NCBI GenBank assembly: GCA_022578965.1
Contig: MU400613.1
Location: 80,523 to 144,522, forward strand
Length of the DNA: 64,000 bases
Direction of reading: 5' to 3'
Source of the DNA: Xylaria sp. FL1777
Taxonomy: Eukaryota > Ascomycota > Sordariomycetes > Xylariales > Xylariaceae
This document shows positions 1 to 64,000 of the stretch, one piece after another. Below the pieces are notes generated by a model. That model saw only the letters and a program-made list of their open reading frames with translations. It was not told the DNA's origin and ran no database searches. A program made the translations under genes and the position numbers. The stretch's first letter is position 1, and each line of letters opens with the position of its first letter.

Positions 1-3000
1 CTAAAAACTAAAGCTAGCAATTTAACTAATTGCTAAAAGTTATTACTATAATAAAACTATAATAAAAAACAATAATAATATTTTATGCTTAAAAAATTTA
101 AAACATAACGAAGTACTATAAAATTGCTATATAATATATTATTGCTACTAATACTTATTTAATAAATTAAAAAATAATTAGTTTTTTAAATAAATTGCAA
201 AAACAGAAATATAAAACTTTTACGAATTAAAATAGTTAGTTATAACTATAGTTCATTATAAAAATTTATAAAAATTTGCAACATTTAAAAAGAATTTTAA
301 CTGCACTTATAACACTAGTTCAAAAAAATATAAAAATAACTACTATAAATATTACTAGCTAATTAAAACATAATTGTATTAAAAAATAGTTGCTAAAAGC
401 AAAAAAGCTTAAAAACTGCGATTTAAAGCTTGCTTAAAAACAAAAACAAAACAAAGCGCAATAATATCTAAAGTACAAAATAAAACAAGTATTTAAACAT
501 TTAACAAAAAAAAGTTAAAAAACAAAATAAGCACTTGTTAAAAAAGCAGCAAATAGCTAAAAAAACTAAAGCTTTACATAAAGTTTAATATAATAACTAA
601 CAAAACTAATTTAAAGTTAAACTTATATATTAAAAAAGAAAATATAACACTTTAATTAACTTAAAAACATAAGCTAACATAATTTTACTTAAAGTAATAA
701 AACAAAATAAAATTTTTTAAAAATACAAGCAAAAATCCTAAAAAATTAAAAGATTTAATAAAAGCACTTTTAGCTATAATAACAGTTGCATACTTAAAAA
801 AACTAAACTTTTTAATATATTTATATAAAAATATAAAAAGCAAATTATATTAAATATTGCTAATATATTTAATTATAACATTATTTTAGAAATATTATAG
901 CTAAAAACTAGCAACCTTTTAATTTAATAAAAAGCAAAAACTATTAATTAAAAAAGCAAAAAATAAAGCAAAAAAATTAGAAAAATCGCAAAAGAAATCT
1001 TAAATAAAATACTAAAAGTATATTACAGATTTTATAAACTGTTTAAAAAAAAAAAAAAAAAGAACTTCTTAAATATAGCTTATAAAACTACTATATTTTT
1101 ATTAAAGAAAAATATTAACTAAAGCTTTATTAAGTATATTATATAAGCTTAAACAAAACAAACACTTTATAAAAATACATTTAAAAAAATCTAGCAAAAG
1201 GATTCCTAAGAAAATCTTAGTTGTTTGCTAAATACTTTATAGTACTCGTATTTAAAATAAAAAATAAAAAACAACTAATTAATAAAAAAAAAAAACCAGT
1301 ATAGCAAATAATAATTAACTATTAACTATTAAACATAATTACTATTATAAATAAATATTTTTTTATTTTGTTAGTAATTATAAAAAAAAACATTAGCTAA
1401 GCAAAATAGTTTATAATAGTTAATATTTTAAATAAATACTATACTATTAAAATAGCTAAAAAAAAAAAATAAAAAACTGCTATACAAATAATACATAAAT
1501 TATATAAGTATATAGTTATGCTATAAAAACTATAAAACGTACTAGCTAGCTTTTAACATATAATAATAATAATTTTATAGAAGTTTTTAAACAAGTTTAT
1601 ATTTATTTACTTAAATAATATTTTAATTTACTTTAAAACACTAAAAAAACACAAAAAACATATAACTTAAGTATTAAAAACACTTAAACAAGCAAAATTA
1701 CAACTTAACACAAAAAAATATATATAGCATATATAAAAAATTAACTTTTTAAAATTTACAATTACTTTAAAACAAATATAGATTTAATAGTTAAAAATTA
1801 ATATAGTACAAAACTAGAAAATATTTAACTTAGCTACTATTATAAACATATAACAAGCATTAGAATTTTTAAACTATATTTAAATATTAATTTAAAACTT
1901 TAAAAAAATAGCGTTCTATTTTACAAAGTATACAAAAAAGAAATATAAAAAAAAATCTTTTTTAATCTTAAAAAAAGCCCAAAAAGCTTTTAAAAAACTA
2001 AAACTAAAAGTTATTTTTAACCTTATAGTTAAACTACTTAATCTACAAAAAAAAAAAAAGCTAAAAATAAATGCTTTAAATAATATAATTACAAAAGTTT
2101 TAAAACAACTAAAAAACAACAAAAAATAGCACTTAGTAGTTTATTATTTTAAAGCACTATAAAATGCAGCATTATAATACCTTATTTATAATAAAAAACT
2201 GCTTGCAATTATTACAGCACTTAAAAAGTAAAAACTGTTCTTTATAAAAACTATAAAGCTAATTAAAATCTATTTAAATTATTAAAACCTAACAAAATTT
2301 ATAACTACGCAAGAAATTACTAAACAACATAAAAATTAAATAGTTTTTTTTTCTAAATTTAACTTTAAAATATGCTACATTAAGAAAAAAAAAAACATTT
2401 AAGCAAACATACTTAGTTAATAAAGTTAAAAAGGATTTAAAGTTCTAAAAAAAAACATTTAAGTATTACATCCCTAAAAAAATAAAAGCTTAAAAATTAA
2501 AATCATTTTTAAAAACCTTATAAATATATAGCTATAATAAGCTTATAACTTAGAAAAGTTAATAAAACTACAAAAACATAAAAAATCAAAAAAAAACAAG
2601 CTAATATATAAACGTAAAGTTTACTTACTAAAATCTTTATAAAACAAGTTTATTAAAAAGTTCTATAAACACTTATTATATAAACACTAAAAAGCAACAA
2701 AAATAGTTAAACAACTATAAAAAAAATACAATTTTTTAAAACTATAAAACATAGTTAAATCTATTATAAAAAAGTGCAATATTTGTAATAAAGCTAAAGT
2801 AGCTTAACATAAGCTTTATAAACTACTATAACTTATATAAATACTTAAATAAGCATAGCATACTATTATTTAAGATTTTATTATAATATTACCTTTATTA
2901 ACTAATTTAGTTATAAAAGTATAATATAATAAAATATAAGTTATTATTAATAAACTTATTAAGTATGCTTACTTTTTACCGTTTAAAAAAAATATAATAG

Positions 3001-4022
3001 CTAAATAACTTATATATGCTTTTATACGCTAATATTTAAATAAGCATAAACTACTAAAAAAAATTGTTTTAAATTAAAATAAATTGTTTATTTTTAAGTT
3101 TAAAACTAGTTTTTTTAAACTTATTAATATTAAACTAAAGTTTTTAACTGCTTACTACTTATAAACAAATAAACAAACAAAAAAACTAAACTAAATATTA
3201 AAACAATATTTATAAAATTATATTAATTATTAATAAAATAATTAAGTAAAATTATTATTAATAGTATAAATCTTATATAACATATTAACAAACAAAAATA
3301 TAAATATATTTTTGCATAAAGCTATTTATAAACAGCAAGCAACTATTAAAAAACAAAAAAAAACATTAATAAAAACATTTATTATTTTAACTATAGTACT
3401 TTAAGCAAAAACTATTGCAACAAAAATTAAAACATTATAAGCTAAACTATAATTACATTTTTAGTTTTTATAACAACAAATGTTAATATATTATAATAAA
3501 AAACGAACTAAAAAACTAACTTTTAAAAAAAAAAACAAAGTTTATTTGCTATAACAAAAACAAAATGCAAACATTAATATCTCTTAAATTAAAACAAAAC
3601 AACTAAGCAATAAATTAAAATTTAAAAAACTTAGCTTTTTTAAAATTAAAGAAATCATTTTACTTACTAATTATAAACTATTATTACTAAAAAATATATA
3701 AATCTACTTTATTTTTTACATTTTTTTATTAAAACTAGCACTTATTAAAATACTTATTAAAACATAACTAAAAATAAAAACAAATTAAAACGTTTATAAA
3801 GTTAAAAGTATACTAGATTTTCGTTAAAATAATAATAACTTAAAGTATTTTATTAAATAAAAAAAATACTTATATGCTAATAATACTTAAAAACTTAAAA
3901 AACACTTAAAAATTGCTAAAGTAGTTATAAATTAGTTCTACTGCTAATACTTTAACTGCTTAAAACTAAAAAAAAAAAGTTAACTTTAAAAAAAACGCCT
4001 AAAAAATTTTAATCAAACTTAA
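1..4022 (+). pseudogene. pol: Ty3/gypsy chromovirus pol relic (element A), 5' end outside window
   Basis: Decayed polyprotein that once encoded reverse transcriptase, RNase H, integrase and a chromodomain. Reading codons whose first base is at 1608, 1611 and so on (positions divisible by 3), and treating TAA/TAG as former Gln/Trp/Arg, the order is: RT catalytic motif YLNN at 1608-1619 (from Y-x-D-D, both Asp now Asn); RNase H motif YNKKLLAII from 2187; integrase zinc finger with CNIC at 2775-2786; first catalytic Asp kept (GAT 2874-2876, DFI); second changed to Asn (3072-3074); Glu changed to Lys (3180-3182) inside TAYYL*TNKQTKKLN, the decayed TAYHPQTDGQTERLN box; chromodomain about 3780-3955 with ILDFR and YFIK*KKY. 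The frame holds without an indel over these 2.4 kb. The strand is A-rich, as expected for retroelement sense strands. Gag and the 5' LTR lie before position 1. Family identity is secure; the exact end (stops near 3981 and 4020) is not. Confidence 0.9.
3780..3958 (+). pseudogene. Chromodomain relic at C-terminus of element A pol
   Basis: The segment reads Y-K-V-K-S-I-L-D-F-R, then N-L-K-Y-F-I-K-*-K-K-Y-L-Y-A-N-N-T-*-K-L, then H-L-x-x-A-x-x-V-I-N-*-F. This lines up with the chromodomain core (E-V-E-x-I-L-D-x-R ... Y-x-V-K-W-x-G-Y ... N-T-W-E-P ... A-x-x-L-x-x-F), with both Trp codons now stops and Glu now Lys. In chromoviruses this domain is thought to steer integration to heterochromatin. It is in frame with the integrase upstream. 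Confidence 0.8.
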
Positions 4023-4560
4023 ATAAAGCAGCTTATGCTGCTTTAGCTTGCTTTTTTTATTGTTTTTGCTCTTTTACTAGCGCTTTTTGTTCTTTTTTAA
4101 TGCGCTTTATTTTGTTTAGTTTATTTAAGAACTAAAGCTTTTACTAAACTATTTTAACACCTTTTGCTTTTAAAAAACGTTTTTATATATAAAGCTAAGC
4201 TAACTTGCTTAAAACAAAATTAAAGCTATTTTAAGCTTGTTTTAATTTCTTTTAAACTAAAAATAGCTATTGCTTTGCTTGCTTTTTTTCTTTTTTAAAA
4301 CAACAGTATTTAAAAACTATGTTATTAATTAAATTAATTAAAACTCTTGATTTATTGCAAGAATAACTAGCACGTACGCATTTAAAACAACAAAACATAT
4401 TATTTGTTATTTTGCATGTTAATAACCAATTAAAGCAGCAAAAATAAGGCATAACTTCATAGCTAATAAAATCAATAAAAAAAGCAAAAACAAATCTTTG
4501 CTTTGTTTTAAATAAACAGTTAGTTTTTTTAATACGCTTTAATATTATAACATATAGAAA
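4022..4560 (-). pseudogene. Antisense Cys-rich / coiled-coil gene relic between pol and 3' LTR of element A
   Basis: On the minus strand one frame can be followed from about 4560 to 4022, interrupted only by TAA/TAG. The N-terminal part (61-codon stop-free stretch 4452-4267) is Cys-rich: CCFNWLLTC, then CCFKCVRASYSCNKSR, i.e. a C-x2-C-x6-C pattern after an earlier Cys cluster. The C-terminal part is Lys/Glu/Gln/Ala-rich and helical (KKEKKQAKQ; RFLKAKG; IKKEQKALVKEQKQ; KKQAKAA), as in a coiled coil. The local base skew flips from A-rich to T-rich on the plus strand exactly here, supporting minus-strand coding. It is tail-to-tail with pol and reads away from the LTR at 4625-5094, so an antisense LTR promoter is plausible but unproven. 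Similar Cys-rich proteins with a basic coiled coil occur as hypothetical proteins in fungal genomes; that resemblance is from memory, not a search. Function unknown. Confidence 0.55.
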
Positions 4561-4608
4561 AAAAAAGAAAAAAAAATACTTATAAAAAATTATTAAAACA
4601 ATAATTCT

Positions 4609-4621
4609 AAAAAAAAAGAAA
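4609..4621 (+). other. Polypurine tract of element A
   Basis: A run of purines (nine A, G, three A) ends three bases (TAA) before the LTR that starts with TG at 4625. The same arrangement, purine run plus three bases plus LTR, is seen at 58282-58299 in element C. It fixes this LTR as a 3' LTR of a plus-strand element. Confidence 0.6.
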
Positions 4622-4624
4622 TAA

Positions 4625-5094
4625 TGTTATAAAATTAGCACTAAAGTAACTTTTAAAACAGCTTAATGCCTTTATATATATTTTGCACTTTTTTTTTTGC
4701 TAGCTAAAGCTAAAGTTATATAATAACTTACTTAGCTTATTAAGCTTACAGTAATTTAAAGCTTACTAAGCTTATAATAATTTAGTGCTTATTAAACTTG
4801 CAGTAATCCAAAAAGAATTATTACTTTTCTTACTTTTTTTTTGCTTATATAATTATGCATTTTTTATATTTAATTACTTACTTAGTTCTTAGCTCCTTAG
4901 CTATTAATTTCCTTATAACTACTAAGCACTAATATATTTATTACTTTTAATCCTTTAAAACCCTTATTAATGCATAGTAGTAAAAGTACCCTAAAAACCT
5001 CCTTAATGAACTACCGTTAAAAATCCTATTATTACTTGCAAATTAAAACTTTAAGAGCAAACCTGTTATATTAATGTATAACAAGTCCGTTACA
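4625..5094 (+). repeat. 3' LTR of element A (LTR family 1, copy 1)
   Basis: 470-bp repeat matching 62764-63257 from end to end. It starts TGTTATAAAATTAGCAC and ends CCGTTACA, i.e. TG...CA. It holds three units of a 26-bp internal repeat (GCTTAnTAAGCTTA...TAATTTA) where the other copy has four, which explains most of the 24-bp length difference. A terminal hairpin (AACCTGTTATA...TATAACA) lies just before the end. Compared with the other copy this one is heavily mutated: for example ACAGGGGTGGCC there reads ACTAAAGTAACT here. The flanking 5-mers (AATAA, CTTTT) do not match, as expected when the element's other end is far away, so a solo LTR is unlikely. Confidence 0.8.
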
Positions 5095-6500
5095 CTTTTG
5101 CTTTAATTTTTATTACTGTTTTTTTTAACGCTAAAATTACTATTATGTTTAGCAATAAGCAATAGCTGCTTTTTTTAGTTTTTACTAAAAATATGTACTT
5201 AACTAAAGAAAAAAAGCTATATTTTCTTAATTTTTTTGCGCTTTAGCAAAAAACTACGCTTGCTATTAAGCTTTTTTAGTTTAGCGCTATTAAGCTTGCT
5301 TGCTTAAACATTAACTATTAATTTATTAATAATATTTTTTAATTTACTTTTTAGATTTTTTATAACAACTAAATATATAAAACTTAGCAAATTTTTTAAA
5401 ACTGCTATAATATTTACTTTAATAGCATTATAGTTGCTTATATATGCAAATTTATATAAGCAGTAGCATTACAAAACATAAAAAGCTTTTTTTTTGTTTA
5501 TAATATATAAAGCAACAATAAGCGTATTATTAGCATAAGCTTTACTAATAATATTAATGTATGCTTAGCTTACGCATTTATGCTAAGCTTATTTAAGTTT
5601 AATATTTAAAGCACTTTTGTAAGCTATAGTAACTTTTTTAAAAAAGCATCTATTATTATTATTTTTTTATATAACGCATAAGTAAGCAATATTTGCAAGC
5701 ATATATAAAAGTTTTATTTTGCTAAGTAGTACTTAAAGCTAGTTTAAATACGTATAAGCTATAGTGTTTAAAAAGCAAAAGCTAATATTATTATTGTTAA
5801 TTTAATTTAAACTAGCTTTTATAGCTTTTTAAGCGATTTTTGCTTTAGCTTTACTTTTTGTATTTATGTTAAGCTTACTTAGTTTTTTCTTTGCTTGTTT
5901 TAAGCTTAAAATAGTTCTTAGTTTTATAAAGCATTAGTTAGTATTAAATAGCTTTTTAAGCTTGTTTTTTATTACTAAAAAAAAAGCGCTATTTATATGT
6001 ATAAAGCTAGCAAGTATTACTTTTAAAACTTTTATTGCTTAAAATGTTTTATTTATTATAACTAAAGCAGCTTATGTTTATAGTAAACATGTTTTAATTA
6101 TGCTTATAAGTATGCTACTTATAAATATTACGCTTTTATAAAGCTATTTTTTATTAATTTGCTTAGTATTTTATGCTTAATTAACATTTGCTATTAATTT
6201 ATAAATTATATATTTTTTAAAACAACTGTTTTTTTTTATAAAACCTTTAGAAAAATAGCTAGTAAAGCTAATACTACGTAGCTATATATGCAAGCTAGCA
6301 AGTTTTATTACAACATAAAAATCCTAAATTAAAAGGCCGTGGATTTTAAACAGCAAAATTAAGTAAAAAAGCAGTTTGCGCATAAGTTTAGCAAAGCGTT
6401 TAAAAAGCTAGTTCTGCGGTTTTTTGTTTAAAAAAGCGCGCTTTTATTTAACTTTAGTATATATTTTGCAAGATTTTTTGCTTTTGCTTTATTACTACTA
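5095..6500 (-). pseudogene. Non-LTR (LINE-type) reverse transcriptase relic
   Basis: The minus-strand frame with codons ending at 5526, 5529 and so on runs from about 6,500 down to 5,095 with TAA/TAG stops only. Two RT signatures fit LINE-type enzymes: AYANNTLIVA, with the Y-A-N-N codons at 5537-5526 (from YADD, both Asp mutated), and about 60 codons earlier LLYMLANIAYLCVI near 5700, resembling the P-L-S-x-L-L-Y-x-L-A-x-E-P-L-L-x-x-I box. The C-terminal side is Lys-rich. The plus strand is T-rich throughout, consistent with minus-strand sense. The relic stops at the element A LTR, so element A may have inserted into it or truncated it. The upstream limit is not resolved; no endonuclease domain was found by eye. 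Confidence 0.5.
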
Positions 6501-30850: not shown

Positions 30851-31029
30851 CAATTAAGCTATTAATAAAACTAATCTAAAATATATAAATACGAATTAAC
30901 TTGTAAGCTTACATAAAGTATAACTATTAATATAGCATTAATACAAAAAATAGCTACAGTTATTTTATAAGATTAAAATTAAAAGCAACTAAATGTTTTT
31001 AAATAATTTATTAAGTTTAATTGTTTAAA

Positions 31030-31230
31030 ATTTTTAACGTTTAATAGTTTTTTAACGTTTGATATTTTTTAACGTTTAATTGTTTTTTAACATTTAATAT
31101 TTTTTAACGTTTAATAGTTTTTTAACGTTTGATATTTTTTAACGTTTAATTGTTTTTTAACGTTTAATTGTTTTTTAACGTTTAATAGTTTTTTAACGTT
31201 TAATATTTTTTAATGTTTAATAAACGCTTA
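31030..31230 (+). repeat. 17/18-bp minisatellite with higher-order structure
   Basis: Eleven units, each with AACGTTTAAT or a variant, beginning at 31036, 31054, 31071, 31089, 31106, 31124, 31141, 31159, 31177, 31195 and 31212. Four variants in fixed order make a ~70-bp higher-order unit, which repeats once and then diverges. Confidence 0.9.
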
Positions 31231-32290
31231 ATAAACATAACGCTAAAAAGCTATAGTATAAAATCTATTTTATATTAGGTTTTGTTTAGCTAAAACTGCT
31301 ATAATATTACTTAGCTTTTATTTGTTTAGCTATTAATATTTAGCAGCTAATCTTTATATAAAATGATTTTATCTTTTCTTGCATTAAGGTTAGTTAAAAA
31401 AAAGTCAGCTTTTAATTACTTAGTTACTTAGTTTTATAAAGCAATTTAAACTATTATAAATTAAAAAGTTTTAGTTTAGCATGCATTTTTCTAACTTATA
31501 TTGCTTGCTAATATAAGTAATATTATAAGTATAAAATATAATTAAACTTTTAAAACTTTAATATTTTTTTGTTAATTAATTAATAACTTTAATTAAAGCA
31601 AATATATTAATAAAAAGCGTATATTAAGTTATAAATGCAGGTTAATTTTTTTTTTTAAATTTTGTTAAATAATAAGGTTTAAACAAAGTATAGCTGCTAA
31701 AAGTATATTATAGTACTTTATAATAATAGTTATTGCAGGCCTTTTACTTTTATTAATATTACTTAATTTTGTAGCTAAACTTTGCAAACAAACTATATTT
31801 TACTGCTTAATTACTTGCAAGCAAGCTATATTTTGTAAACATAATTTGCAAAGTAAAATATTAGGTTTAAATAAAATTATAATAAAAGCTTTACTAAAAG
31901 ATATACGCTTTTTTGCTAAAAACAAAATATACTTATTAAATATAAAAGCTAAATTAAGCTTTTTATTTACTTTGCTATAGCTAAACTATATTTATGTTAA
32001 TAAAAAAAAACGTTTAATATTTATTAACTTGCGTTTTACTATATATAAAAAAAAAACAAATAATATATTTTATTTTATTACTGCATAAAATTAGTTATAA
32101 CAATAATTATTGCAGTAATAGCTAGTATATATAAAATTAAGTAAAACTAGAAGCACTTTTAACTTTAGTAGTTTTTATTAGCTAAAATATGCCTGTTTAA
32201 TAAGCTTAGCATATATTATAGTTAAAATAGCTTTTAAAGATATAAAACTTTGCATAAGGCTTGCTATTTTGTTATTTTTTTAACTTACGT
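31231..32290. other. Decayed sequence, no identified gene
   Basis: Mixed skew. No array, RNA gene or domain recognised. It may contain the 5' part of the coding relic that follows. Confidence 0.35.
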
Positions 32291-39200: not shown

Positions 39201-39467
39201 TAGATCTTAGTTAATTTAAGAACTTATATTATTTTATAATGTTAAAAATCTTAAGCAGAACAATATTAAATTTTATATGCTAAATGTTATTTAATAAAAA
39301 ACAGGTTTTATAAGCGTAAAAAAACTAATAAATATTTAAACTTACTTTTTATATTAATAAGCTAATATATAACGTGAATTCTAGTTAATTTATTTTTTTT
39401 GCTTAGTATATTTGTTTTAGCTAGTACATTAGTTCTAGCTAGTATATTTGTTTTTTTTGGTTTACTT
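36243..39467. other. Decayed sequence with patches of higher G+C, no identified gene
   Basis: G+C-richer patches at about 36260-36380 and 37710-38060. An imperfect palindrome TCCGTACGAAATTTTATACG plus GA (37712-37733) has a related sequence at 38028-38054. A segment at about 38295-38350 resembles 40815-40870 (GTTAGTTTAAGCATAA core). Confidence 0.4.
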
Positions 39468-39577
39468 GTTTTGCTTGTTTTATTAGTTCTGCTTGTTTTA
39501 TTTGTTCTGTTTAGTTTATTTGTTCTGCTTGTTTTATTTGTTTTGTTTAGTTTATTTGTTCTGCTTATTTTATTTGT
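39468..39577 (+). repeat. 18-bp minisatellite with 36-bp dimer, six units
   Basis: Alternating units GTTCTGCTTGTTTTATTT and GTTCTGTTTAGTTTATTT begin at 39486, 39504, 39522, 39540 and 39558, with one weaker unit before. The 61-codon Leu/Val/Phe-rich open frame across it (39399-39584) is a repeat translation. Confidence 0.85.
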
Positions 39578-41099
39578 TTCTTAAATGCAGCTTTTCTAAA
39601 TAATATAGCTTTTATTGCATTTATAGCTAACAAAGGATTTAATATTTGCTTTGTGCTTTAAGCTGTTTATAAATATAACTTATAACTATTTTATATAAGC
39701 AAATATACTAAATAATATTTTATTTATTTATGTTTTAGTTAAAGGTGCAGCTTTATTAAATAAATTCTAAAATTAAGAGCTAAAGCTTACTTTAAACGAT
39801 ATTATTTATGTAAAAATTATTGGCTTGCTATAGCAAAATGAAAACAAAGCGAATTACGTTTTGTAAGCATGCTTTAATAACAATAAAAAATTTAATAAAA
39901 CAATTTTTTAATCTTTTAAAACAGTAGTATAATATTTTAGGGATATATTTTTTAATAGTTTAAAGGAAGCTATATTTACTAGCGCTTTAAATGCTTATAT
40001 TTGCAAAACTATTTTAGAAATTTTTAAAGATATATATATAAATACTTTAGCGCAATTAAAGGATACTATTATGGACTTAATTAAAACTAATATAAATAAA
40101 GCATTTTAATAATTTTACGCTATTTTTTAAAAGCAAACTAATATAGCTATTATTAAGCTGTTTAAAAAATATAAAGTTTGATTTTAATTATTAAACTAAT
40201 AAATTGTTAGCTTTTAGAAATTTGTTTACTAACTGTAGTTATAACTTAGTTTTAAAGACTTTTTTAAAAATAATAACTTTTGTTTAGTAAACAAAAATAA
40301 AAGACTACAAATTTTTAAACTTAGCAAAAAAGCTTAGCTAGCTATTATTTTAGGCTTTGTTAATATATTAATAGCTTTAGCTACTATATTAACTAATGTG
40401 CAATTTTCTTTTTTTGATTTTGCATTAGCTAAAATAAATCTTTTTACGTAATTAGTTAAAAGTGTTTAGTAAAACGTTAAATAATAAATATAGTAATTAA
40501 AAGCTAGCTAAGATTTTTAAAACAAGAATAATTATTGCTAATTATATATATACATATAAAAAAAAAATCCATTTTGTTTTAAATAATTATTTATATTTAC
40601 TTAAATAAGCAAGCATAAATTATAACAAGTACTTAAGTACTTATAGTATAAATAACATAAAACCTATTTTTTAATTTTAATTAATCTTATGTTATTTTTA
40701 ATATAATTTTATTTTTTGCTGCAATTATAATAACTTAACTATAACTTTGCTATTTTTATAGCTTATAAAAAGCTAACTGTTTTTTATTTTATGTACTACT
40801 AAACGTTTTTTTAAGCTTAATATAACTTTGTAAGTTGTTTAATATGTTAGTTTAAGCATAAAAAGTACTGCTTAATAAAAATATTAATACTTTATTTTAG
40901 CAAATATTGCTATATATAACATACTTAAGTTTATTTTTATTACTAAGTATTTAAATATTGCTACTTTACTAATAGACCTTTTTTTAGCAGCTAAATTAAT
41001 ACCTTTTAGTATAATTTTAGTTTTAATACATTTTTTATATTATTTTTTTTTTATTTTGCTTTTATAAGTTAAAATAAAAAACCTAAAACATTTTTAAGC
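39578..41099. other. Decayed sequence, no identified gene
   Basis: No recognisable domain. It contains the second copy (about 40815-40870) of the short repeat found near 38300. Confidence 0.35.
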
Positions 41100-62763: not shown

Positions 62764-63257
62764 TGTTATGAAATTAGCACAGGGGTGGCCTTTAAAGTGG
62801 CTTAATGCTTTTATATATACTTTGTACCTTTTTTTTTGCTAGCTAAAGCCAAAGTTACGTGACGATTTACTTAGCTTACTAAGCTTACGGTAATTTAGGG
62901 CTTACTAAGCTTATAGTAATTTAAGGCTTACTAGGCTTACGGTGATTTAGTGCTTACTAAACTTGCAGTAATTTAAAAAAGGTTATTACTTTTTTTACTT
63001 TTTTTTTGTTTATATAATTATATACTTTTTATATTTAGTTATTTATTTAGTTTTAGTTCTTTAGCTATTAATTTTTTATAACTGCTAAGCACTAATATAC
63101 TTATTATTTTTAATCCTTTAAGACTTTTATTAATGCATAATAATAGAAATACTCTAAAAACTTTTTTAATGAACTACCGTTAAAAATTCTATTGTTACCT
63201 ATAAATTAAAACCTTAAAAGCAAACCTGTTATATTAATATATAATAGGTTTGTTATA
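62764..63257 (+). repeat. 5' LTR of a second element A family member (LTR family 1, copy 2)
   Basis: 494 bp matching 4625-5094. Starts TGTTATGAAATTAGCACAGG, ends TTTGTTATA (CA now TA). Holds four 26-bp GCTTACTAAGCTTACGGTAA-type units. Its left half is much less mutated than copy 1 (GGGGTGGCC and ACGTGACGA are kept). The perfect-but-one terminal hairpin AAACCTGTTATAT ... ATATAATAGGTTT is at about 63222-63252. The sequence after it is A-rich, the sense-strand skew of the family, so this is read as a 5' LTR. Confidence 0.8.
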
Positions 63258-64000
63258 CTTTAATAGCTTTTTAATTAATAGGACTTAATATACAAAAACA
63301 AATATTAATATAAAAAGTTAAATAACAAACGATTTATAAAATAAACTCTTAAAGGTATACTAAAAAGATATTTAAAAAACAAAAATGCTAAATAGCATTA
63401 TATAAGTAAACTTTACTTAATAATTAATAAACTAGATTTAAGTTATGCTACTAAAAATAAAAAGTTAAGAATTAAGTTTAAAGATTTTAAAGATTTTTAG
63501 AACTAATAATATATTAAAATAACAAACTTTAATACTTTTATTAGTTACTTTTATTAAAAAAAAAGCAGTAATAAAAAAAAAAAAGTTAAGCAGCAGTAAT
63601 AAAAAAAAACTAACATTAATGCTAACGCTACAAAATAAACTAGTTGCTTTAACTTAAAAGATAGCTTAAATATTAAACGTTATAACTTTTAAACTAGCGT
63701 AAATATTAGCTATAATAATTAAAGTAGCAATAATAATAGCTATTATAACAATAAGTTAAAGCTTTAAACAAGTAATTATACTACAATTAATATTAATACT
63801 ACTACTAGTAAACTTAATGCTTATTTTTATTATTGCTATACTTAAAGTAATAACTTAAAATAAAAAACTTAATTTTTTACTACTATTACTACTTTTATTA
63901 TTAAGATTATTTATAATGTTAAAAATGCTAAACATTAAAAGTTTTAAACTTATTGCTTTAAAGCTTTATAATAAATCTATAAATATAAAAGCCTTTTTAA
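63258..64000 (+). pseudogene. gag: Start of internal region (probable gag) of the second element A copy
   Basis: A-rich sequence with dense stops directly after the LTR. One frame has KFKDFKDF*N, another is Asn/Ser/Thr-rich (NNNSYYNNKLKL; NTTTSKLNAYFYYC) with TAA in place of likely Gln. This is compatible with a gag region and its low-complexity linker, but no diagnostic motif is clear. The element continues past the window. Confidence 0.45.

Follow-up and report, generated by a model that had tools for sequence, protein, structure and literature searches.

A probable antisense accessory gene with a Zn(II)2Cys6-like cysteine cluster, located between pol and the 3′ long terminal repeat of a mutated fungal chromovirus

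The 64,000 nucleotides of Xylaria sp. FL1777 analysed here (the window: positions 80523-144522 of contig MU400613.1, contig C108 in our numbering; G+C 19%) open with part of a chromodomain-bearing gypsy retrotransposon, or chromovirus, designated family A. The element begins upstream of the window start, and our analysis covers it from the remainder of pol to the 3′ long terminal repeat (LTR). Between these two lies a segment which is very probably the remnant of a real accessory gene carried on the opposite strand. The full explanation, which we hold to be probable, is that of a fungal chromovirus antisense gene of the aORF-3R kind, encoding about 147 residues with an N-terminal Zn(II)2Cys6-like cluster and a basic tail, exchanged as a block between element families and destroyed by repeat-induced point mutation (RIP).

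Copies of family A were searched for in the genome of the window (58.7 Mb, 588 contigs) with positions 4022-4600 as the query. This gave 404 first-look candidates, of which 40, including the window copy, were read and scored; all family A counts below refer to these 40. The segment was matched at 91-100% identity in every one of them, and in each of the 39 other fetched copies the alignment ran unbroken from the end of pol through the segment into the LTR, of which at least a part was covered. Its location between pol and the 3′ LTR, the place of aORF-3R genes, is therefore contiguous in 40 copies out of 40, and the counterpart of 4025-4602 was 576-579 bases long in all of them, with a G+C content of 16.5-21.5%. 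Compared to the 39 others, the window copy differed by 4.38% C/T and 4.17% A/G changes (8.55% transitions), and by 0.04% transversions. RIP leaves transversions untouched; as the differences are transitions, with so few transversions, the copies would have been nearly identical before RIP. No empty site was seen among the 40 copies, but these were retrieved by means of the segment itself and give no indication of how many elements are without it. The first-pass annotation of this DNA had located the extra segment correctly, together with the change in base skew found there (AT skew of +0.213 in 3501-4000 and −0.054 in 4001-4500).

The minus-strand frame spans 147 codons (4009..4452), from an ATG at 4452-4450 to a stop at 4011-4009, and overlaps the end of pol tail to tail. 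The start codon was ATG in 37 copies and ATA in 3, the frame was terminated at 4011-4009 by TAA or TAG in all 40, and 38 copies were free of any net frameshift. It had been described as continuous, which does not hold, each copy having 7 to 14 in-frame stops over codons 1-147. Over codons 1-143, a stop was present in some copy in 17 columns, 12 of them variable and 5 near-universal. In 11 of the 12 variable columns, CAA, CAG or CGA was found in other copies, as RIP would produce; the twelfth corresponded to one odd single copy in an AAA column. One of the 5 near-universal columns read TGG in one copy. Near-universal stops were fewest in the claimed frame among all six (5, versus 7-15 in the others). 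As a control, we took the pol frame fixed by the chromodomain, whose 106 codons include 9 universal stop columns and 2 variable ones, so that universal stops do not exclude coding in this element.

The frame had also been noted for a C-x2-C-x6-C cluster, which is present, and turned out to be one half of a double cluster. Since RIP turns a Cys codon into a Tyr codon, we scored as Cys/Tyr-only the columns in which no codons other than these two kinds occurred. In the family A frame these were columns 3, 5, 6, 13, 21, 22, 25, 30, 32, 50, 51 and 88. Columns 3, 6, 13, 22, 25 and 32 form the arrangement C3-x2-C6-x6-C13-x8-C22-x2-C25-x6-C32 (codons 3-32, 4357..4446, minus strand), the same spacing as in the Zn(II)2Cys6 (Gal4-type) cluster, whose pattern is C-x2-C-x6-C-x(5-12)-C-x2-C-x(6-8)-C. 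With as many columns placed randomly, the chance of such a spacing depended on the null chosen, being 0.0037-0.0059 in one calculation and, in another, 0.0049 in the first 40 codons or 0.00021 over the whole frame; it was sought in the other five frames of family A, and present in none. The pattern in family A was sought only after the columns had been seen; the independent test is a second family, B.

Family B derives from a genome search for the PF17921 domain (105 matches), from which 30 loci were taken. Eight of these share the pol of the window over more than 1.3 kb; three run on into the same segment, which the other five (L050, L056, L061, L062 and L074) do not. Querying the genome with the tail of L061 yielded 188 candidates; 40 of these were scored, and 14 loci fetched. 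Family B counts refer to these 14. At the same place, the minus strand of family B holds a 133-codon frame ending in Lys-Phe-Asn-stop, identical to the end of the family A frame. Its first codon was ATG in one copy and ATA in 13, and 5 to 9 in-frame stops were found per copy. Cys/Tyr-only columns were 4, 7, 10, 14, 24, 27, 35, 93 and 110, from which the six-cysteine spacing is found again, as C4-x2-C7-x6-C14-x9-C24-x2-C27-x7-C35 (expected by chance at a frequency of 0.00035 within the first 40 codons and of 0.00005 over the whole frame).

Spacing and alignment both indicate that the antisense genes of A and B are homologous. When the 40 A and 14 B rows were aligned, all six Cys columns paired. 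An alignment of 8 rows of each gave 52 columns with shared residues, compared to 36.6 +/−4.8 (maximum 50) in 100 realigned shuffles, and the A-B score of the claimed frame was the highest of the six (z of 5.9). Transversions per codon position (47, 26 and 48 of 130) agree with coding, a count which is biased by the protein alignment and was not used. Frame, cysteine pattern and A/B homology thus all lie on the minus strand, as in aORF-3R genes.

The two families differ over a sharply limited block. Fixed transversions were counted with family A represented by 7 rows, the window and six further copies from the 39, and family B by 8 of its 14. None was found in 3300-3839, 4 in 3840-3991, many in 4003-4834 (about 7-18 per 50 bases, gap-rich bins excepted), and none after 4834. 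Since they are dense only in about 4003-4834, the antisense gene, the spacer upstream of it and the U3 part of the LTR differ as one block (4003..4834). The same contrast was seen between the window and one B copy, with transversions at 7 of 1380 bases in pol, 107 of 380 in the antisense open reading frame (ORF), 33 of 171 in the spacer, 42 of 170 in U3, and 4 of 263 in R-U5. On the right, the block probably ends at the U3/R border, which is where a first-strand transfer to another RNA would place the limit. From known LTR biology, the exchange may have taken place in the course of reverse transcription, the first strand being transferred to an RNA of another family packaged in the same particle, and the left limit of the block would correspond to one template switch near the end of pol. 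A diverged counterpart in family B and a difference confined to one block lead us to conclude that the segment is a genuine antisense accessory gene, rather than a chance frame or an independent insertion. The proposal of an antisense Cys-rich gene between pol and the 3′ LTR is well supported in this respect, by 40 copies out of 40 and by the family B counterpart. Neither of the outcomes named beforehand as contrary to it was observed: no scored copy is without the segment, and the antisense frame of family B, though diverged, has its cysteines spaced in the same manner.

The minus strand would have coded for a protein of about 147 residues, in which the double Cys cluster is followed by a basic, Lys-rich and probably coiled-coil tail (codons 53-147, 4012..4296, minus strand), the lysine content of the translations being inflated by RIP. 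Coiled-coil-type matches to the tail were weak, and were obtained only with the family B or the joint profile. Our best guess is that the product acted in the nucleus as a regulator binding DNA, with the U3 of the element itself as a possible target. Tentatively, the spacer or the U3 in the 3′ LTR would have driven transcription of the gene, and the protein would have regulated its own family, until RIP destroyed the copies seen here. More speculatively still, and we regard this as doubtful, antisense gene and U3 could form an exchangeable regulatory cassette, in which a Zn2Cys6-like DNA-binding protein controls the adjoining U3 and families swap protein and target together; such a swap would perhaps help to escape silencing or cross-control, with pol and R-U5 unchanged. 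Against this, physical neighbourhood alone would move the gene and U3 together. Moreover, no U3 motif shared by A and B above chance was found, which speaks against both the cassette and the U3 step of the explanation above. One motif seemingly common to the two U3s was dropped, the longest common stretch, of 11, being equalled in 47 of 100 shuffles. Both U3s bear tandem repeats, 35 bp x 2.0 and 26 bp x 2.8 in family A (4707..4807, Tandem Repeats Finder) and 38 bp x 2.9 in family B.

Several results weigh against the reading of a zinc-cluster-like antisense gene. An intact minus-strand ORF, which the first-pass annotation had proposed to look for in relatives, was open in none of the 40 A copies, all of them RIP-mutated, and in none of the 14 B copies; RIP explains this lack of intact copies. 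The claimed frame had 10.2 stops per copy, slightly more than the 9.8 of the plus frame at 4022, so that the number of stops proves little by itself. In the A-B score, the other minus frames reached z of 5.1 and 4.9 and the plus frames 2.1-3.2, so that the six-frame test separates weakly, and in the 8+8 row alignment pairing was incomplete, with only 4 of the 6 Cys (at most 2 in shuffles). No Pfam zinc-cluster match was obtained at E up to 10 with one A and three B translations. RIP damage may hide such a match; because the curated domain profile is unmatched, we call the cluster only Zn2Cys6-like. Compared to a canonical Zn(II)2Cys6 cluster, several expected basic residues and the loop proline were not seen in the codon tallies. 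Protein searches at E up to 1 and 10 gave no homologue, whether with an alignment of 12 of the 40 A copies or with one of 7 of the 14 B and 4 of the 40 A copies; the searched collection does hold fungi, since an intact fungal pol gave 1460 matches in it. Finally, the DNA-binding and U3 steps are inferred, which also counts against the whole.

Other searches gave no closer relative. In the PDB, matches were weak only (best E of 0.12), and viral contigs yielded no relatives. Among prokaryote contigs, three gypsy pol fragments were found (28, 29 and 25% identity), and their listed ORFs, checked by eye, did not include such an antisense gene. The contigs of these loci (L096, L097 and L098) are filed as bacterial genomes and carry eukaryote-like gypsy pol, probably by contamination. 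An unmutated copy was sought through the 105 PF17921 matches, 2 of which lie in stop-free open frames. One is an intact element on contig C234 (L079, G000:C234:33000-37500, 3-1820, plus strand), an unmutated chromodomain gypsy pol of another family with a 1789-aa open frame; after its chromodomain region, minus-strand ATG ORFs of at least 35 aa were only 36 and 40 aa long, and none was of comparable size to the antisense gene. The other, on contig C310 (L078, G000:C310:4500-11000, 4692-6500, minus strand), is a host-like gene of normal G+C with the PF17921 match inside a 729-aa open frame, which may resemble an Spt10-type acetyltransferase.

The nature of the product is where an alternative has most room. 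It is quite possible that the gene is real and its product something other than a DNA-binding regulator, such as an RNA-binding protein or a silencing suppressor, or that the antisense RNA acts by itself. The basic tail fits such a product, Pfam does not recognise the canonical zinc-cluster residues, and a review entertains the antisense RNA itself as a possible regulator; the Zn2Cys6-type spacing of the cysteines in two families argues for the DNA-binding regulator. It is unlikely that the segment has no coding function at all, whether as a chance or dead frame in a 3′ region that does not code or as a fragment captured from the host. The absence of an intact copy and of a database match would fit it, as would codons biased by RIP and a claimed frame which is not the lowest in stops per copy, but chance does not readily give the same Cys spacing in two strongly diverged families, an A/B alignment above 100 shuffles, and a common Lys-Phe-Asn-stop.

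An account without block exchange, in which the antisense gene and U3 simply evolved very fast, agrees with the homology of the A and B genes. It is nevertheless quite improbable, for fixed transversions are absent on either side and dense in between, and this step in divergence makes recombination the easier account. Even less credit can be given to a sense-strand product, either an env-like ORF or a C-terminal extension of pol across the segment. The CAA found in one copy at the supposed pol stop and the fixed A/B transversions close to it, at 4005 and 4024, would be in its favour, but the plus frames hold 7, 10 and 13 near-universal stops over 4022-4452, score lower between A and B, and lack the six-Cys pattern. 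Least probable of all is that the segment was inserted independently between pol and LTR, as a unit with ends of its own. Direct and inverted repeats are present in 3960-4640, and are weak and A/T-rich, whereas the segment occurs in all scored copies and corresponds in position to the family B gene, and the A/B block is bounded near the end of pol and within the LTR, not at insertion ends.

An antisense gene of this kind has a precedent. According to papers citing Zhao et al. 2011, Boty-like elements of Botrytis cinerea carry the antisense gene brtn between pol and the 3′ LTR, likewise in a fungal chromodomain gypsy element, and similarity to both Pol and BRTN of Boty is reported for a transcript of Monilinia. 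The likeness with brtn is one of position and orientation; a difference is that the copies seen here are all RIP-mutated. In plants, passages of PMC7264820 and PMC11963269 describe antisense ORFs at the same place in Grande (gene23), RIRE2 and Retand, and a nuclear or DNA-binding role has been proposed there for aORF-3R proteins. A 2020 review finds the proteins without clear database similarities described, yet names SMC and transposase 28 domains; the Retand ORFs encode a TRP28 domain, and the passages do not mention a zinc-cluster-like spacing. Compared to the plant aORF-3R elements, the repeats of family A are located in U3. In plants and in Boty, these 3′-end antisense genes have been reported with no known function; the literature drawn on also included PMC8365987, PMC5987419, PMC4227169 and PMC3248453. 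Antisense retroviral proteins such as HBZ of human T-cell leukemia virus type 1, encoded close to the 3′ LTR and regulatory in the nucleus, serve as a working analogy, with no homology claimed. In the literature covered, which leaves most subscription papers outside, neither a zinc-cluster-like antisense gene nor a joint exchange with U3 came up; this does not prove novelty, and the Zn2Cys6-like spacing and the cassette exchange may be the new parts.

The rest of the element is that of a chromovirus, having an integrase and a C-terminal chromodomain. On the plus strand, the RIP-mutated remainder of pol occupies 1..4022 and contains the integrase zinc-binding domain at 2631-2801, a PF17921 match in the window copy itself (C108:83153-83323) with 4 TAA inside. 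The chromodomain, at about 3795-3938, is placed by homology, from the PF00385 match in a family B copy (C230:26816-26959) with a near-identical pol; the window copy is not among the 16 PF00385 matches. The codon 4020-4022, the supposed stop of pol, was TAA in 36 copies, TAG in 2, TGA in 1 and CAA in 1. The claim that pol clearly ends at about 4022 was too firm: this is the likely end and not a certain one, since the CAA in one copy may mean that pol continues beyond this point and its overlap with the antisense gene is longer. Upstream of the antisense ATG, a spacer (4453..4605), read from the sequence and unlike that of family B, leads to an A-rich, polypurine-tract-like stretch (4606..4624, plus strand). 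The 3′ LTR (TG...CA) then follows at 4625..5094, plus strand, similarity among copies ending most often at 5092-5094. It would divide into U3 (about 4625-4834) and R-U5 (about 4835-5094), a border placed where A and B become alike again.

Elsewhere in the window, a second LTR at 62764-63261, possibly solo, has a family A-type U3 (82-85%) and R-U5 (86%), and two tandem arrays, at 30996-31259 and 39426-39596, repeat about every 18 bp. Other elements met in the same genome were another pol family on contig C64 (L095) and an element on contig C62 (L080).

Two sister families with a common pol and a very different antisense gene and U3 offer a natural comparison to learn what the gene recognises. 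The spacing of the cysteines gives a concrete hypothesis for this comparison, that the product may be a nuclear, zinc-cluster-like DNA binder.
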